In this document: piece by piece, positions 17,652 through 64,000 of the stretch
How positions within the stretch are numbered: position 1 is the stretch's first letter
Layout: every line of letters begins with the position of its first letter
Assembly (NCBI GenBank): GCA_030077755.1
Contig: JAQJZZ010000015.1
Span: 2,232,001 to 2,296,000 of the forward strand
DNA: 64,000 bases
Reading direction: 5' to 3'
DNA from: Filosporella fistucella
Taxonomy: Eukaryota > Ascomycota > Leotiomycetes > Helotiales
Program-made: the position numbers and the translations under genes
Notes under the pieces: model-generated
What the model saw: only the letters and a program-made list of their open reading frames with translations
The model's database searches: none
What the model was told of the DNA's origin: nothing

Positions 17652-19419
17652 TTACAGACCCAACTCCTGCCTTAAACCTTCTATTGTTCTCTCCTGCCTT
17701 TCTATTCTCACCACGTCTGACTTTATTTTCGTCACTGCACCCATGATAATCTGCAGTGTTGTGGCCAACTGAGTATAGCTTGAAAGAGCCAGTAGAATGA
17801 TACTAGTTCTTATCTGAAATGGATAAACAGTAACTGCAGCAATTGACGTGACCAGACTGCCGAGGAGGAGGGATCGAAACAATCTTTCGTTCCTTACTTT
17901 GAGATCTTGTTCCAAGAGAATGGGAATGATGGTGCAATAGAGACTTGCGATACCAACGACAGCCGAAGAAAGTGTTGAATAGAAGTTGCTGTCGATAGTG
18001 GGGAGCTTATTAGGCGTCGTGCATTGCCATGTGGCGATAGCGGTTTGACGGCGCTTATGAGCCAAAGTAAGATGACAATCGCGAGAACCGTATAAGTCTG
18101 TCCTGGCTCATACATGGTGTCCCGCCATTTAAGCTTAAAACGCCGCCATAATTTCTTCCTGTGGTCATTAATCCGCTGGCGCAGTGGAGGAATGGGTTTA
18201 GTTTGAAGGGAGTGTTCGAAATCTCTGTCATCCTTCACGCCAAATCCCAATCTTAGGAAGTTCCGACTCCTTAGTTTTCCAGGATTTCTAGGAAACTCAG
18301 CACTTGAAGTAAAAGAGCTTGTTTTAGTGATGCCGAGTTTGATATCTTCGTCGTAGGCGATTCTGATTCTAATTTCTTCCTCTCGCACCACTACAGGATC
18401 GATTTCAGCCATTTATTTTCCCTCATCACACAGCAAAGAAGTTCAAACTTACGGTGTGCATCTTTATCAAGAGCACTTTCGACCTTTGCTTCCATTTTGG
18501 CGAATTCGGCTTGCAAGAAGGCTACTAAGGAGTCTAAACGGTTCGGCATACTATCAAATTGGGGGATATGCTCCTGAATCCCATCTAATACTTGCCTCAG
18601 CAAATCCCAACTCCGAACACTGTCTGATATTAGACCTCCCACTGTGCTCTTGACTGCATTCCACGTTGTCCACTGGCCATAGCGATTTGTTGTGAAACGG
18701 TACCCTGACGAGAAATTCCACGCCCATTCGTCGATGTGGCAAGTAAACAAATCCACGTGTGTTTCATAAGACATGAGGGAGTGGTATAGAGCATTCAATG
18801 CATCATCCAACTCCAAAAAAGACACCGCTGCGGCTGGGTACGCAAGGCAAAACAATCCCCAAAAATCCTTTTTGTCGATTCCTCTCAGACTTTTAGCCAT
18901 CATAAAGGATGTCCTTGGGTCAGACCCTGGAGGTATCACTTTCCCAAAAATGTTCATCAAACACTCTTTCAAGTCTCCGTTCATCGACTGATCGTCAATT
19001 TTTAGTTGTCGGCGTATGCTGCAGGAGGATACTTTGACAGTCCGTTCTTCCTGCAATCCCTCCACATGGGAAGGGGGGAAAATTCCTGCTTTCCTGGTCT
19101 TTGTGTTTACTCCCAACGCCCACTTCTTCGTCGGGTCTGCGTCAATAGTCAGCTCAATTAATGATATCTGGTCGCCGACATCGAAATTAAAGTTGTGGTC
19201 GTCATCATCGTGATAATCGTGGATTGCGATGACTCTCCCAACCTCATTTTTGCCTTCCACGAGCTGTGTGAACAGGTTCGCTGCCTGATGTCCTTTTCGG
19301 TTCATGTGCTCATCATCCAACACAGGGCGTAAAAGAATTGGCGAGGCTGAGCCTAGAATACTTTTATCCTCTATTTTCTTCTGTTTTTGTCCCATGACTC
19401 CAAGATGAGTGTAAGACAT
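17652..19419 (-). CDS. SH3-domain protein with C-terminal membrane segments, probable frame break
   Basis: Exon 1 (19419-18453) and a 62-bp intron (gtaagt donor, ctgtag acceptor) lead into a second coding stretch from 18390. Residues 62-123 resemble an SH3 domain (RVIAIHDYHDDDD at the start, GIFPPSHVEGL at the end). A helical middle region follows, then a basic stretch and a hydrophobic segment (TYTVLAIVILLWLIS). There the frame changes: good coding sequence (TTPNKLPTIDSNFYS, then two or three membrane segments and a coiled tail) continues to 17652 in another frame. A 44-bp intron with a poor donor (gtcaaa) would restore the frame but removes conserved-looking residues; a one-base indel near 18040-18060 is the alternative. 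A membrane-anchored scaffold role is plausible. Confidence 0.6.
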
Positions 19420-56764: not shown

Positions 56765-57549
56765 CTACATTGACGGAGGTAATACAGGAATAGGTGCTGG
56801 TCCATGCCTAAACCTCACCCCAAGTATATCTGCAAGGCCTAGACAGAGCTTTTGTAAGCCCACCAAGTCTTCTCTCGTCGCACCATTCCAGAGCATGCCC
56901 TTCATATGATGCTGAAGTTGGTTTTGGCAGTCCATACCATATAAACTAGCAACCATCGCCCATCCAGTCGTTAGATCATCCAAAACGCCATCAAACGAGA
57001 ATATCCTCGCGTAGAGAACGTCTACTCTCACTCAATATACATCTTGGGTCCGTGGTTTCAAGAAGCAAGGATGGGGTTTGCCTTACCTCTTACAACAAAC
57101 GCGTAGTCTGGACTAGCTCGCACAGATGCCTCCGGATCAAAATCTGGATTTCGCGCATACACATTGGCCCAGAACTTTCTCCCTCTCCCTCTTGCTTGCT
57201 CATCCGTCTCGTTTGACCGTGGTGATTCCAATTCCCGAAGCTCTGTAGGGATGCAGCTTGATAGAGTGCGCATGGCGTTGCCTGTTCTACATGCTCCTAC
57301 GGTACCGGTAGACTTGATGAGGCCCTCTCGGACGCGGTTGATAGCCTTCTTCCGGGCATCGATTGTCTCTATATTTGTGAGGATGGTGGAGTCGAGGTGT
57401 TTATAAACTTGAGGGATGACATCGGGATAATTGGTAGATGAGAGCATGATGAGGACGCACATGTACCAGCGCAGCTTGTCATTTGTTGTTGGAAGATCTA
57501 GGACGGATTGGAAGAAGGAGTCCGGTATTACAGGCGTCTCTGCAGCCAT
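56765..57549 (-). CDS. AhpD/carboxymuconolactone decarboxylase-like protein
   Basis: Exons 57549-57087 and 57030-56765 around a 56-bp intron (gtaagg donor, attgag acceptor) give 242 aa. The start chosen is the ATG of MAAETPVIPDSF. The fold type is suggested by the helical core with LRWYMCVLIMLSSTNYPD, REGLIKSTGTVGACRTGNAM, GRGRKFWANVYARNPDFDP and LQKLCLGLADILGVRFRHG, as in fungal CMD/AhpD-like proteins of about 240 residues. The family's paired catalytic cysteines (CxxC) are not clear here; a single Cys in GACRTGNAM is the closest, so the chemistry may differ. It shares a 386-bp divergent promoter with the barrel protein at 57936, placing it in the cluster. Confidence 0.75.
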
Positions 57550-57935
57550 GATTCCAGGAAAAGTGTTATTATTATATCCTAATGTTCTGGAAAGAGGTAT
57601 GGTGATATTGGTGTAGCGAAATTGGATGAGCAACTGGACAGGAGGTAAGTCTGCTAATTCGGAGTCGAAGAAACAATGGATTTGCATAAAGCACCTTTGC
57701 GTGGTATTCTTTTGATTTTCAAGAAATCGATCGGTAAAATCTCGACTTTAGCACTACCTTATACAGGAGGTGCTGCAGGAGAATTTACATGCTCATTGCC
57801 GGACTTTGAATACCGCCCCGCTAATTTAGCGGAACTTGATGATTGAGTGGATTATAAATGAGGCTTATCCTGATTTGCTAGGTGACCTAAAGCAACACCA
57901 ACCTATTCTGGGAGGCCAGAAAAAGAGGAATCGGC
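57550..57935. promoter_or_regulatory. shared divergent promoter with a CCG-N9-CGG palindrome
   Basis: A 386-bp region between two outward start codons. At 57818-57832 lies a 15-base palindrome, CCGCTAA-T-TTAGCGG, perfect but for its central base. Its CCG/CGG ends are classic Zn2Cys6 half-sites. A further CCG-N10-CCG direct arrangement lies just upstream. The cluster regulator at 61254-63801 is the natural candidate; binding is inference. Confidence 0.55.
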
Positions 57936-58744
57936 ATGTATATCGTCAGTCCACTATCGCAATGCGCTAGTCCTGACAAGAGGGATAAGGTACGGTCACA
58001 ATTCTTCCTTCCGCAACGCACAAACTCAAGTACCACAGTTTCTGGAGCATATAGCACGAATATCTCTTGTCACTCTAGCGACAGAGCCAAATTGCCATGG
58101 TTATGCGTGGTTCCGCAGCGCCAGTGACAATAACGTGGTGCCTTCCCACTGGCTCCGGGGCTTCGAGATGTAAGATCCATAACGATGAAACTTGAGAGAT
58201 AAATACCAATATACACCCAATTAGGTACGCAAGCCCGGAAGCAAATCAAGTAGAACACAGAGCAAGTGATGAGTACAAAGCTTTCCGAAAGGCTGTCGGC
58301 GAGGAAGGCCTCCTTGCCAGACCCAGCGACTTGGGTTTCTGGCGTCCGACTGGTATTGGCTTCCTCACCAAGAAGTGTCAAGATCAAGTAATCTTCGGCG
58401 GTCAGGATTACTCGTCAGGGCAGCAATATATAATTACAGATGAATTCACTCCGAAGGATGGCTCGAGGGAACAACTTTTCGACTCGCTGAGACGAATTGC
58501 GGAAAATGCGTTAAATGACGAGACAGTCCTTTCTTTCTGGGTGCAGGATAGATTCGGCATGGAGTCTGGGACTCGTGAAGAAGAGAATGAAGAGACGGTG
58601 TATATATTTTTGAGGTGTAAGGATAAGGCATCTGCTGAAGTATTCTATGGGCAGAAGGCAGCCTCGAAGTTAGCGAACGGTGGGTGTAAGGCTCGGCGAA
58701 CGACCACTTGGATTGACTCCGGTATTGGGTTCCTGGGTAGATAG
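57936..58744 (+). CDS. dimeric alpha/beta-barrel protein (ABM-like)
   Basis: Three exons (57936-57989, 58039-58169, 58225-58744) give 234 aa; introns are 49 and 55 bp. The N-terminal half reads MYIVSPLSQC, EHIARISLVTLATEPNCHGY and FEMYASPEANQVEHRASDEY, the layout of antibiotic-biosynthesis-monooxygenase-like barrels (strand, helix, strand, then the .H...HR.S..Y block). A second, similar half follows (DYSSGQQYIITDEFTPKDG, LRRIAENALNDETVLSFW), so the protein may hold two ferredoxin-like barrels in tandem. Such proteins are cofactor-free oxygenases, decarboxylases or scaffolds. It is transcribed away from the CMD-like gene and converges on the cyclase gene. Confidence 0.78.
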
Positions 58745-58949
58745 AAGCTAAAAAATCTGGAAGTAGTATAGGTAATAACACATTTATCTGATTTGTGTTG
58801 CCACAAGGCAATCAAAAAAATCATCGTGTATCACAACCAGCACATCGCTTGTGGATGTTGCAAATTTCGAGGCAATTCACCTGGATATAACGAAGTCACA
58901 TTCGCGATGGTAAGGTTTCTACGAAGAAAATTTGTGAGCGGCATATTTT

Positions 58950-60138
58950 CTACATAATAGCGATGCCATTTGGCGGCGAAGCGACTGCTCCAGTATAGCT
59001 CAGGGGCGCGGACGTAAACAAGAATGACCATCGACTATTCTTTCTGCACAGCTCTGCCAATCCCTCCAAGTTAAAGAGCTCTCCAATTGGTGTACCCCAT
59101 CCGGCAAGCAAGATGGGATGCAAGTGCCACTCTTTCTCGGCTGGGGCTTGAATAATAATTAGCAAAGGAATATAAGATAAATATACGGAACAATTCTCTT
59201 GGACTTACGTCTAACTTCAAAACCAGGGGAGTCGCTCACGACGGCAGCAAATTGATTCTTCCACAGCCATTCGGTAGTTTCTCGACTCTGGCCAAGGCCG
59301 CACCATTCCTTTTTGTTAGCAACTTCCTTGCACTCATTCTCGGTGAGCGACTTGTACGCAGCGACGTAGCCGGTGCGCAGAAAGAGGATGTCGCCGCTGC
59401 GGAGTTCGGTGTCCTGCTCTTTGGCAATTTCCAGCACTTCTGAGAGAGTTATTGCATGAGGAGCGAAATGTGAGACTGCAATTCCTTTCTTCTCGGCGTA
59501 TGATGCAAAGTCGATCAAAACGCCTCGTCCTGCAATCCCTTTCTCGGTCCAAGGTTGTAGGCTATTGATTGTAGTTCTGTGTCCTGCGTGAAACTCTTGT
59601 TGAGTGGCGCTGCATAGTTGTGAGTTAGAGCTCCCAGTCTCGGTGATTCAGATGACAAGTACCCATTGTAGAACATCTTTTCTTTTTGGTAGGCAAAATG
59701 TCTCAAGCTGTCCCACTGAGAACTTCCTTGGGTGTTGAACGAGATCTGTAGTCGTTAAATAACAACGCAAAGATGTGTAAACTTGACAGACTCACCACAT
59801 CGTCATTCACGACGAAGGGATCTTTATCTATAATTTCCTGCTGAAATGCTGCTCTGCCTAGTAGTGGAGGGCTGAAAAAATCCAGTGGGAGACTGTGAGA
59901 TACGTTGTTAGCCAATGCTCTTCTGGTTGAAGCTGTCAACCTACTCGAGACCAACCCGCTCGCCAGTCTTGACTTCTTCTTTGGTTGTCTTCAGGAGTAG
60001 ATCATCTGTCAAGTAGTTGAGAGAACCCAAAGAGGTACCTTTTGCATCGCTCCAAAGACCCCACGCTGAGTTTGGCGGGTCTCCTTCCTGAAGGGGAAGA
60101 TCTGCCAATGTAGGCAGCGGACTGATTCTTTTCGACAT
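58950..60138 (-). CDS. cyclase family protein (PF04199-type hydrolase)
   Basis: Five exons (60138-59945, 59892-59796, 59745-59663, 59609-59209, 59146-58950) give 323 aa, the standard size. Family marks include PLDFFSPPLLGRAAF, SFNTQGSSQWDSLRHFAYQ (where bacterial members have HxGTHxD), GIAGRGVLIDFASYA, LRSGDILFLRTGYV and, at the end, WGTPIGELFNLEGLAELC with SPPNGIAIM. The group holds kynurenine formamidases, isatin hydrolases and many fungal enzymes of unknown substrate; the metal-binding His/Asp set is partly altered in the fungal branch, as here. It is probably cytosolic. It shares a divergent promoter with the barrel gene at 60521. Confidence 0.88.
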
Positions 60139-60520
60139 CTTGTATCGTGAATAATCGAAGAACAGTACAATCCTTTCGCTGCACGGAGTTCTGAGGTACT
60201 CAAGATTATGCACAGATTTTCACTGCCGAACGATAACTCATTCCCATGAGCAATTTGGTTCCGGAAGCAAGTTGGAAGTGGGCCCAAGATTCACACGGAA
60301 CACGATGTCCGGGAGCATACGGATATCGGAATCCTTAGCTAACAACAGCGATAATGGGGCAATATTCCGACAAGAGAAGTGAGGACTGGAATCCTTAGAG
60401 ATACTTCTTTAACGGACATTATTGTGCCTCAAGTGTCTACATATCAGGTACTCCCGATTGCACTCACATCTCTTTGCAAATTCTCGAATAGTCGTCCCTC
60501 AGTATATGGAACGCTTCCTG
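60139..60520. promoter_or_regulatory. shared divergent promoter with CGG dyad and 60-bp spaced repeat
   Basis: A 382-bp region between outward start codons. It holds CGG-N10-CCG at 60296-60311 and an exact 11-base direct repeat, GGAATCCTTAG, at 60328 and 60388, spaced exactly 60 bases. CGGATATCGG lies next to the first copy. Confidence 0.5.
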
Positions 60521-61186
60521 ATGTCGAAATTACCAATAAGCGGCGCATTGATGCGTCTTGTTGAGCCACAAGATGGCAGTGACCTAAGCGCCCATACTAC
60601 TGCACCCAAATCGCCCTATCCCAACATCGAGAGGACATACACTGCGGTAGCCTCTGATGGCGAAAAGCCTTCCGTCATGGCCCTTTACATCGTGAGCGAC
60701 ATTACTCCCTTCGTAACTTCGCAAAATCTTTATGATAAAGATGTGAAGGCGAACCCCAATCTAGACATCTCCTGGATCGTTTGCAGCTTCGTCAATGGTC
60801 GCGACAAAGGCGCCTCCACCACCGAAAGTCCCGGTAACTCGCAGCCTCTGTCATTCTCGCCAGCTGCGGGATCGAAACTGGTGATCAACGGCTCAACTCC
60901 AAGACCTGACAAGGAGGGCGAGTACCACGATTGGTATAACATTGAGCATGGCACCGCACTTGCGACTGTGGAGGGCTGGAATGCAGGCCGCAGGTATTGC
61001 TTTCTAAAGAGTTATGGAGAGATCGAGACGGCTGCTTTCTATGGATTCAACTACTACGACGAGAAGAGCGGACTGGGTGGACCGGAATGGCAGAATGCCA
61101 CGAAGACAGAGTGGACATTTCGTATTCGGGGCAATGCGGCAAAGCCTAACATCCGGCGGGTGTGGAAAGTTCAGGAGTCCTTGTAG
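60521..61186 (+). CDS. dimeric alpha/beta-barrel protein (EthD-like)
   Basis: A single exon of 221 aa from the ATG of MSKLPISGALMRLVEPQDG. The second half carries EGEYHDWYNIEHGTALATVEG, the ..HDWYN.EH block of EthD/stress-responsive barrels, followed by GRRYCFLKSY and strand-like GFNYYDEKSG. The first half is a related but more diverged barrel (FVTSQNLYDKDVKANPNLD), so the protein probably has two ferredoxin-like units. Fungal EthD relatives include decarboxylases of aromatic polyketides. It converges on the Zn2Cys6 gene with only 67 bases between stop codons. Confidence 0.78.
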   Translation: MSKLPISGALMRLVEPQDGSDLSAHTTAPKSPYPNIERTYTAVASDGEKPSVMALYIVSDITPFVTSQNLYDKDVKANPNLDISWIVCSFVNGRDKGASTTESPGNSQPLSFSPAAGSKLVINGSTPRPDKEGEYHDWYNIEHGTALATVEGWNAGRRYCFLKSYGEIETAAFYGFNYYDEKSGLGGPEWQNATKTEWTFRIRGNAAKPNIRRVWKVQESL

Positions 61187-61253
61187 TAGATAGAAACTCT
61201 CCAATAGTCAGTCTTACAAAGTTCATCGCATATGTTTGATATCTCTTCATTGC

Positions 61254-63801
61254 TCATTGAAACACTTGAGTGGGTGCAAATAAACCATATAAGGTATTTT
61301 GTGAAATGTCCCACTCCTGATCGTTCAAGAAATTCATCAAGTCAGGTGTGACCATATCTGGGCCTGTTTCGAGTGGATCAATCATGTTCTGTTGGGCATT
61401 CATGTCGTAAAGATACTGGGCAGCCGAATACACTTCCCTATCCACACTCGGCGTTTCCAAGGGCAGCTGCTGGAACAAACTCTCGTCAAGAATGCCAAAG
61501 TCAAGCTGCTGCGTAGCCACAAGTCCGCACTCTTTTGTACTGATCTCAAATTCACGGGCCATATCCCTCAGTACTGACAGCGGCTTCTTAAGACCTGAAT
61601 TGCAACCGTGTTGAAGCTCGCCTAGACAAGTCCAAAAAAAGGAAATGAGTTCTGTAAAGTGACCTCGGTAATGACGCTCCTGGGGGAGGATTATCGCAAC
61701 GGCTGAGTAGATGGCATAGGATAATAGGAAGGGGGCTCGACGAAGTGTGAACGTCTTCCTATAAGCACGGATGTACTTTTCTATCATGAGGGCGCTAGAG
61801 ATGCACTCTTGTTCGCTCAAGCCCTTCATTTCGTCATCCGAATGCCGTCTGAGGTGACCCTCTTCCATGAAAGCACGGTATAACAGAATACGTAGCGTAT
61901 GGAAGGTCGTACTGCATCCATGTGTTAGTATCTATCGAGCAAATTATAAGGATTACTCACTACGGCGTGATTTGATGAGGTGGAGGAATGTTGAGTCCTT
62001 GAGGGTCAAAGACAAGGTGATCTGGCAGGTTGGCATTCCAATTCTCCAGCTCCGACTCGATTGTGGCCTTCTTTTCAAGAACTACTTCCGTCCGGTAGCC
62101 AACTGTGCAGATTCCGTATAGCTCACTGACTCGTGCACCGATTCGTATGAGACTGACAGAAGCGTAGAAGCTGGAGATGGCATATGTTGGCTGGGGTGGG
62201 TAGGATGGTTGCTGGCCTTCTGGGTCGCAGGAGTCACGATAAGGTTCCCACTCATCCAGCTCTTCGAAAGTATCCAGAAGTTGGAGAGGAACTCTAGCCT
62301 CCGCTGTTGCGAAGCTACACTGCCTGCCCAAGTATAAAGATTGCGTAACATCGGTCATGTACGCACCCCAGTAAAGCCGTTTGCGCATCTCATGATCGAT
62401 ATCCTTCCGCAACATCTGGGTACTCGTCTGGGTGCTGTTTTCTTGATAGTCTGGTCCGAGCATGAGATGGCAGCCCAGGTCAATAATCATGCGGTACGCA
62501 GTTCCAGAGAGCGCCCACCCAGCACTAACTTTCCCTCGCGCAACAAGCGTGGCGCTGGTTAAGAGAAGCGCTGCAGCTGATGGCACACTTGGCCGTCCCA
62601 TTGCATCAACCAGGAGCTGACAAAATCTGTCATAAAATCTGCTGCCCGCACTCTCGGGGTCATTCACTGAAGTTCTCAAGCCCAAGCGATCACTATAAAG
62701 CGAGCTGGTATAGTATATCGCGTTGAGAAGGAGTTTATTGACCCATGGTCCGCCAGTAGCGATGCTATCCAAAATAGCAGGACGATATGTGATGAGATAT
62801 GAGCAGTGATGTCGATTGAAATGCAGCGTTATCAGGTGTTTTGCAAGGTCTGGCTCGCAGCCGTCGAGGTCAATGGCTTGCTGGGGCTGTCTGAAAAGTC
62901 GTTTCTCTCTCTGCCTCTGAAGAATAGCATTGCTGATAAGGCGTGCTTTTGAACTAGCAACAGCAGTTTCACCCTTACGAGAGACTTTAGAAATGTTCTC
63001 CTTGTGAAGGGCACGGCGCGTTGGGTTCATGATACCTGCCAGCCCGTGCACTGAAGCAACACATCCATCTTCGTGGAAGACACCTGCTACCCTGGCCTCG
63101 CAAGGGGAGAGTCCAGTGCCATCATTTTCCATACTGACAGGTGCAGATTCCTGGAAATGGTTTTGCTCTTGATCTTGCAATCTATGCTGACTTTGACCTG
63201 CGGAATTTGAGCGGAAGGCTGAAGAAAGCCCGTCACTATTCTGATGGACCCAAGAGTTGGTATGTGACGAAGGTAAAGTTTCCTGCTGCACGCCTTGGTT
63301 TGATCTTGTAGGACTTGCAGCCTGGCTGAGGCCCATAGGAGAATTTCCGTACATCTGAGGTTGCTCATTGACGGTGGTGACGGTAGACATTGAAGGCGTT
63401 GGAAATGGTGGGGCAACAGGGGATTCAGGTGTCGCAGGCCGGAAGCCATCGCCATCATCTTCTGACTGATCTTCTCGTGAATACTCGGCCTCGTTGTCGT
63501 TATACTGCAGGTTGGTATTCCGTAGAGCATCCTCGAGTCCGGGCGCTGAGATGCCGGATGCCTTAATATGTTCCAGCATCGCAGCCATGGTCGCCTCTAG
63601 AGTCTGGAAGCGCGCTCGAGTTGGACGAGGCTCCTTTCTCGCATCTCGTGGATAGACACATTGAAGGGCACTCGCAACACATTCGTCGCAATGTGGACGC
63701 ACACCACTACATCTCATCTTCTTCCGCCGACATGATGAGCAAGTCTTGCATCGTGATGATTTCTGCTTGGATCTTCGCGCGGATGCTGTCTTTGTAGGCA
63801 T
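61254..63801 (-). CDS. Zn2Cys6 transcription factor, likely cluster regulator
   Basis: Exons 63801-61961 and 61911-61254 around a 49-bp intron (gtgagt donor, atgcag acceptor) give 832 aa. The start is the ATG of MPTKTASARR; upstream in-frame codons include only a GTG. The zinc cluster uses Cys 21, 24, 31, 38, 41 and 48 with the basic run RRKKMRC. A Gln/Ser/Pro-rich region follows (about residues 90-260), then the fungal-trans homology domain (LHFNRHHCSYLITYRPAIL, DRLGLRTSVNDPESAGSRF, ALSGTAYRMIIDLGCHLML, MRKRLYWGAYMTDV). The end is helical (YTTFHTLRILLYRAFMEEG). It stands at the edge of the five-gene cluster, as pathway regulators often do. Confidence 0.88.
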
Positions 63802-64000
63802 GACTGTGACAATACAAGATGCGAGAATGCGAGATTTCACACGACAGCAGCTCCTCACTACAATGCGGTACCGGTGTGAACGAAACTAGGATGCTGCGAA
63901 GACCATACGAAGAAGGTCTGTCGAACCTGTCCCCATTCGAAGACTCGTTTCTGGTCCATCTTTCGTCGTTGGGAGCCGAGATGCCGGCCTAACCCAAGCC
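63802..64000. other. promoter of the Zn2Cys6 gene, window edge
   Basis: The first 199 bases upstream of the regulator. Nothing else can be said; the neighbouring gene lies outside the window. Confidence 0.4.

Follow-up and report, generated by a model that had tools for sequence, protein, structure and literature searches.

In Aspergillus niger, the protocatechuate branch of the beta-ketoadipate pathway includes prcA, cmcA, and chdA. The N-terminal half of ChdA has decarboxylase activity and is regarded by the authors of that work as a structure not characterised before (PMC10406623). The same study describes NRRL3_00837, a 25.48-kDa AhpD-domain protein, as essential on protocatechuate. Intradiol pathway genes are reported as unclustered in A. 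nidulans and Scedosporium, according to a paper that also presents a gentisate cluster in Scedosporium (PMC8283699). The locus examined here lies in the 45.8-Mb genome (19 contigs) of the helotialean ascomycete Filosporella fistucella (GCA_030077755.1), within a stretch of 64,000 nucleotides (“the window”; contig JAQJZZ010000015.1, positions 2,232,001 to 2,296,000, abbreviated C14:2232001-2296000), and the following 38 kb beyond base 64000 was added, with reading frames listed for pieces L005-L007 of it. Eight adjacent genes, designated A to H, encode a CMD/AhpD-fold protein (A), an ABM barrel protein (B), a PF04199 cyclase family protein (C), a tandem dimeric alpha-beta barrel protein (D), a Zn2Cys6 regulator (E), a Baeyer-Villiger type monooxygenase (F), a major facilitator superfamily (MFS) transporter (G), and an alpha/beta hydrolase (H). 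We place the probability that A to H form a catabolic cluster under one Zn2Cys6 regulator at roughly 60%; its probable role is the uptake and degradation of a ring-shaped compound.

Gene modelling from the sequence, guided by homologues in the case of B, identified the first five genes in the window in the order A(-) B(+) C(-) D(+) E(-), in agreement with the initial annotation. That annotation had treated these five genes as the unit and the regulator as its edge, and neither view can be kept: the window ends within the cluster, F, G, and H lie past base 64000, and E sits inside the cluster, facing F. The lengths given for the two divergent promoters in the window were 386 and 382 bp. The A/B promoter is indeed 386 bp, whereas the C/D promoter measures 367 bp if D begins at its first ATG and 382 bp if it begins at the next one, which is the start in most aligned homologues.

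When prokaryote genomes were scanned with the alignment of D, 35 loci were returned, one of which is fungal (L036). This second fungus encodes all of A to H in the order and on the strands observed here, with matched segments 64-94% identical (G being compared by two exon pieces and H by its first exon), and the matches to A and B are interrupted at the modelled introns. The flanks of the two loci are unlike. Beyond A, the first 16 kb of the second fungus’s flank has no match in the extended sequence of the window, with two weak matches (30-34% identity) further out (L074). The gene after H there belongs to the 7-bladed lactonase family, near carboxy-cis,cis-muconate cyclase (1jof, E 2.6e-30); the F. 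fistucella genome has nothing that matches it closely (best 35% identity). Since the same eight genes are found between unlike flanks, A to H are the unit common to these two genomes. The fungal locus, together with L072-L074, is part of NYXK01000081.1, a 69-kb fungal contig filed under a deltaproteobacterial metagenome-assembled genome, which represents contamination of the public record. The 34 bacterial D-like loci (L037-L070) were considered as further instances of the cluster and rejected, as an F-like gene occurs in only two of them (L057 and L070; 28% identity) and the genes A, B, C, E, G, and H are matched in none (E ≤ 1e-4 in both cases).

Protein searches recovered 116 relatives of D, 32 of B, and 125 of A (120 listed), counts that are rough because one member per cluster is shown. 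The nearest named relatives are those of Cadophora malorum for A (86% identity, among the matches listed) and Oculimacula yallundae for D (76%). Counted by hand, 14 named taxa appear in two or all three of these lists. For 13 of the 14, the relatives are on contigs equal in length, among the matches listed; equal length serves as a proxy for a shared contig, and taxa in one list only are uninformative. The exception is Clonostachys rosea, in which the B relative is just 36% identical. Locus tags fit the order A-B-C-D in Penicillium longicatenatum (A 000739, B 000740, D 000742), P. odoratum (A 002998, D 002995), P. lagena (A 009746, D 009749), Cephalotrichum gorgonifer (A 09476, D 09473), O. 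yallundae (B 1626, D 1628), and Paramyrothecium foliicola (B 10485, D 10487), and deviate in Cladosporium sp. NU13 (A g06892, D g06894). In the species with fitting tags, the gene between B and D is presumably C. The recurrence of this neighbourhood in other fungi indicates that the arrangement is more than chance. Conservation in other Pezizomycotina was the test that the initial annotation had named beforehand, and it was borne out by the co-location of A, B, and D in other fungi and of A to H in the second fungus.

Zn2Cys6 regulators bind sites of the CGG-N10-CCG kind. Among six intergenic regions inspected, this motif is present in the four divergent promoters (A/B, C/D, E/F, and G/H) and absent from the F-G gap and from the gap between H and a neighbouring GH78 gene. 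The joined sequence of 102,000 bp contains 12 such sites, five of which fall within the 2,368 bp of the four promoters, with each promoter hit. In a shuffle test made after the sites had been spotted by inspection, none of 2000 dinucleotide shuffles placed the motif in all four promoters, and when any of 42 choices of spacing and orientation was allowed, 1/2000 did. The L036 locus has five sites in 20,675 bp, including one in each of the same four promoters, where the range taken for the G/H promoter (18700-19373) is approximate as the start of G there is not fixed; the corresponding shuffles gave 0/5000 for this motif and 2/5000 for any choice. The degree to which the A/B site is kept between the two fungi (Table 1) is equalled by 7 of 371 windows compared, at a promoter identity of 54%, and that of the C/D site by 1 of 352, at 59%. 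The muconate-cyclase-like gene of the second fungus also has a CGG-N10-CCG site, approximately 180 bp upstream of its ATG. The first exon of E scores above the Pfam cut-offs for both Fungal_trans (78.7 bits) and Zn_clus (31.4 bits), and E may bind CGG-N10-CCG and switch on the cluster, its own gene included. An extended motif, CGGANNNNGATGTCCG, was rejected because it was not specific genome-wide, with seven matches compared to four for the reversed control. The outcome is a bounded eight-gene cluster with a predicted regulator site.

Gene D provides the link to a described catabolic route. The initial annotation had labelled D as EthD-like, a label that was abandoned: D matched no Pfam family, the genome-wide Pfam search for EthD (PF07110) gave no match at its position, and EthD was touched by 1/46 aligned D members, with an E value of 0.19. 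The predicted structure model has the fold of a dimeric alpha-beta barrel (ferredoxin-like) with two repeats in tandem. Hidden Markov model (HMM) comparison (E 9.2e-27) and hhalign (probability 98%, 209 columns) show homology between D and the N-terminal half of a ChdA-like protein encoded on another contig (C1), the partner being this genome’s ChdA-like protein and not ChdA itself. This homology replaces the tie that had been drawn to EthD decarboxylation of aromatic polyketides. The C1 protein, which is distant, is the only sequence relative of D in the genome, and no close paralogue was found. The C-terminal end of the C1 protein is an enol-lactonase relative (TIGR02427, 133.6 bits, below the cut-off of 255.85), and its gene adjoins a muconate-cyclase-like gene. 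Taken with the structure model, the homology suggests a tandem dimeric alpha-beta barrel for the N-terminal half of ChdA, and the existence of free-standing relatives of it, such as D, in a conserved cluster. The C1 locus itself (L031:1607-7622; C1:764606-770621) contains a folate-dependent O-demethylase-like gene, the ChdA-like fusion of D domain and enol-lactonase, and the muconate-cyclase-like gene, adjacent and on one strand, and from its gene content is likely a lower aromatic pathway locus. No CGG-N10-CCG site was found in 10 kb around it.

Table 1. Features of the A-H locus. Plain positions count from the first base of the window; those with the prefix C14 count along the whole contig. 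aa, amino acids.
Feature	Position	Strand	Size	Basis or remark
Gene A, CMD/AhpD-fold protein	56765..57549; exons 57087-57549 + 56765-57021	-	239 aa	gene model
Gene B, ABM barrel protein	57936..58744; exons 57936-57989, 58039-58169, 58225-58744	+	234 aa	corrected model from homologues
Gene C, PF04199 cyclase family protein	58950..60138	-	321 aa, five exons	gene model, Pfam
Gene D, tandem dimeric alpha-beta barrel protein	60506..61186	+	226 aa, one exon	gene model, predicted fold, HMM comparison
Gene E, Zn2Cys6 regulator	61254..63801; exons 61961-63801 + 61254-61911	-	832 aa	gene model, Pfam
Gene F, Baeyer-Villiger type enzyme	C14:2296376-2298376	+	627 aa	PF00743 66.4 bits, cut-off 22
Gene G, MFS transporter	C14:2299329-2301350	-	526 aa	Pfam 127.1 bits
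Gene H, alpha/beta hydrolase	C14:2302391-2303541	+	364 aa	Abhydrolase_3 113.4 bits on first exon
GH78 alpha-L-rhamnosidase gene	L006:1673-4401 (C14:2305673-2308401), ~2.1 kb past H	same as H		without shared promoter site
CGG-N10-CCG site, A/B divergent promoter (57550-57935)	57800..57815			15/16 bases kept in L036 at 7381
CGG-N10-CCG site, C/D divergent promoter (60139-60505)	60296..60311			16/16 bases identical in L036 at 9826
E/F divergent promoter	in-window part 63802..64000		574 bp	CGG-N10-CCG site outside the window, C14:2296128-2296143

The labels initially given to B (ABM), C (PF04199), and E (Zn2Cys6) all stand above their Pfam cut-offs, and that of A (CMD-like) was upheld for the fold, which is an all-helical CMD/AhpD fold in the predicted structure model, but not for the Pfam family, as A scores 14.5 bits against PF02627 with a cut-off of 23. 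Among 26 aligned homologues of A, 20 touch PF02627 at E ≤ 1 (best 8.5e-7). The genome-wide Pfam search for CMD did not recover A, no close paralogue was found in the genome, and the HMM of A found nothing at the seven CMD loci of the genome. AhpD peroxidases have a redox-active CxxC pair. This pair is absent in the A family, in which the first cysteine is present in 24/26 aligned homologues (as DCQNQ or DCPNQ in 21) and glutamine occurs three residues on in all. A may function as a CMD/AhpD-fold helper or isomerase without the redox CxxC pair. Elsewhere in the genome, three PF02627 matches lie within 4.5 kb (C9:1005702-1010148), of which one is below the cut-off and two are perhaps exons of one gene.

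The ABM match of B (PF03992, 36.1 bits, cut-off 23.1) covers its N-terminal part, residues 11-84, and no close paralogue of B was found in the genome. A two-exon model of B (180 aa) had no Pfam match and was discarded when homologues revealed a missing exon. The deposited B protein of O. yallundae (P0117) seemingly keeps its first intron as coding sequence, as judged against other B homologues. C matches the PF04199 Cyclase family with 55.3 bits (cut-off 23.1), and its closest solved relative is PDB 5ibz (E 2e-24). Metal-dependent PF04199 hydrolases have an HxGTHxD metal-binding motif. C reads NTQGSSQWDSLRH there (QWDSLRH), and 5ibz has the same change (QGSTQWDALSH); hydrolysis by C is therefore less certain than the family name implies. 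Two PF04199 paralogues, L001 on C2 and L003 on C19, likewise have QWDGFRR or QWDGFRH in place of the motif, and members of this type may be a separate sub-family, as judged from their sequences. No other cluster gene was found within 10 kb around each of the other PF04199 loci on C2, C19, and C12 (E ≤ 1e-3). In F, FKGTLVHSARWD fits the Baeyer-Villiger fingerprint FxGxxxHxxxW(P/D), and the best PDB matches are steroid and phenylacetone monooxygenases (E 2.8e-52 and 1.6e-51, respectively).

These predicted functions support the initial proposal to the extent that the locus looks like an inducible pathway acting on an aromatic or lactone compound. G could import a cyclic or aromatic acid, and B, as a barrel of the cofactor-free oxygenase type, could oxidise the ring. 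F would then insert oxygen beside a ketone, producing a lactone or ester that H and/or C would hydrolyse, and D would decarboxylate an intermediate. A more specific scheme, which is offered tentatively and is on balance doubtful, is ring cleavage without a ring-cleaving dioxygenase, in which B would produce a quinone or cyclic dienone, F would convert it to a lactone, C and H would open the lactone, and D, as a free-standing counterpart of the decarboxylase half of ChdA, would decarboxylate the product towards the beta-ketoadipate or a similar pathway, with all steps under one autoregulated Zn2Cys6 factor acting through CGG-N10-CCG.

Several observations weigh against a catabolic cluster under one regulator. 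F, G, and H are next to A to E in one other genome only. The E/F site is kept at only 12/16 bases in the second fungus (equalled by 59/559 windows), the G/H sites of one fungus do not align with those of the other, and two further CGG-N10-CCG sites are within the coding regions of D and F. The assignment of the C1 protein as a ChdA orthologue is based on architecture and mass, and in Foldseek searches D has monooxygenases rather than decarboxylases as its nearest named solved relatives. An import role of G is suggested only by an apparent resemblance to anion:cation symporters. Furthermore, Pfam searches of A to H gave no match to a ring-cleaving dioxygenase, a CoA-transferase, or a thiolase, and thus the block is not a full known catabolic pathway.

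Aromatic polyketide tailoring genes include anthrone oxidase-like barrels and Baeyer-Villiger enzymes, which are comparable to the barrel fold of D, the ABM barrel B, and the Baeyer-Villiger enzyme F. A to H could accordingly be read as a sub-cluster for tailoring within a secondary metabolite pathway that has its synthase elsewhere, in which the barrel oxygenases, the Baeyer-Villiger enzyme, and the cyclase shape an aromatic polyketide that G exports. In Foldseek, the solved structures closest to D are an anthrone oxidase-like protein (E 1.1e-9) and, among the best matches listed, PenE, a monooxygenase (best chain E 1.7e-6). These matches agree with this reading, as barrel monooxygenases of this kind are known from polyketide clusters. 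However, on C14 the ketoacyl synthase match closest to the cluster is approximately 108 kb past H, with none within 100 kb (among the best 68 places scored; non-ribosomal synthetases and terpene synthases were not searched), and the initial remark that the window contains no backbone synthase is upheld for polyketide synthases nearby. The sole sequence relative of D in the genome is the ChdA-like protein, and in the second fungus the cluster adjoins a muconate-cyclase-like gene with the same CGG-N10-CCG site. Tailoring is therefore considered unlikely, and of the two roles initially proposed, turnover or tailoring, catabolism is favoured, although not proven.

Detoxification, in which a toxic lactone or quinone of plants or competing microbes is inactivated without feeding central metabolism, appears quite unlikely. 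A hydrolase, a Baeyer-Villiger enzyme, and a transporter would fit it equally well as catabolism, and no enzyme feeding the tricarboxylic acid cycle was matched in A to H, but the link between D and ChdA points to carbon use. It is very improbable that the cluster includes the GH78 alpha-L-rhamnosidase gene, which adjoins H on the same strand, and degrades the aglycone of a plant rhamnoside, as the gap between H and this gene has no CGG-N10-CCG site, the second fungus has the muconate-cyclase-like gene after H instead, and GH78 was not found in the second fungus’s record (a weak point, as just ~4 kb of that contig extends beyond H).

As a catabolic cluster, A to H would have a make-up not found reported in the open-licence literature, in which no published description of this gene set was found among the papers listed, as judged by title or abstract start. 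Neither Baeyer-Villiger nor EthD occurs in the main text of the 2026 paper on FAMeDB, which is a database covering fungal aromatic metabolism (PMC13094099). The Scedosporium gentisate cluster resembles the present locus in being compact and in having a Zn2Cys6 regulator, a hydrolase, and a transporter, and differs in its ring-cleaving dioxygenase, which has no match in A to H (PMC8283699). Compared to the protocatechuate branch, the present locus has no matched intradiol dioxygenase, CoA-transferase, or thiolase, its D protein stands alone, and the Baeyer-Villiger enzyme and the ABM barrel are additional. A resembles NRRL3_00837 in its CMD/AhpD fold and its mass (26.7 kDa), the two features compared, whereas the structure match given for NRRL3_00837 in the A. 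niger study is FapR, not CMD (PMC10406623). Likeness to the branch is found in the CmcA-type muconate-cyclase-like gene adjoining the cluster in the second fungus and in the similarity of D to the N-terminal half of this genome’s ChdA-like protein, and the homology and structure model of D thereby address the gap stated in the A. niger study for the N-terminal half of ChdA (PMC10406623).

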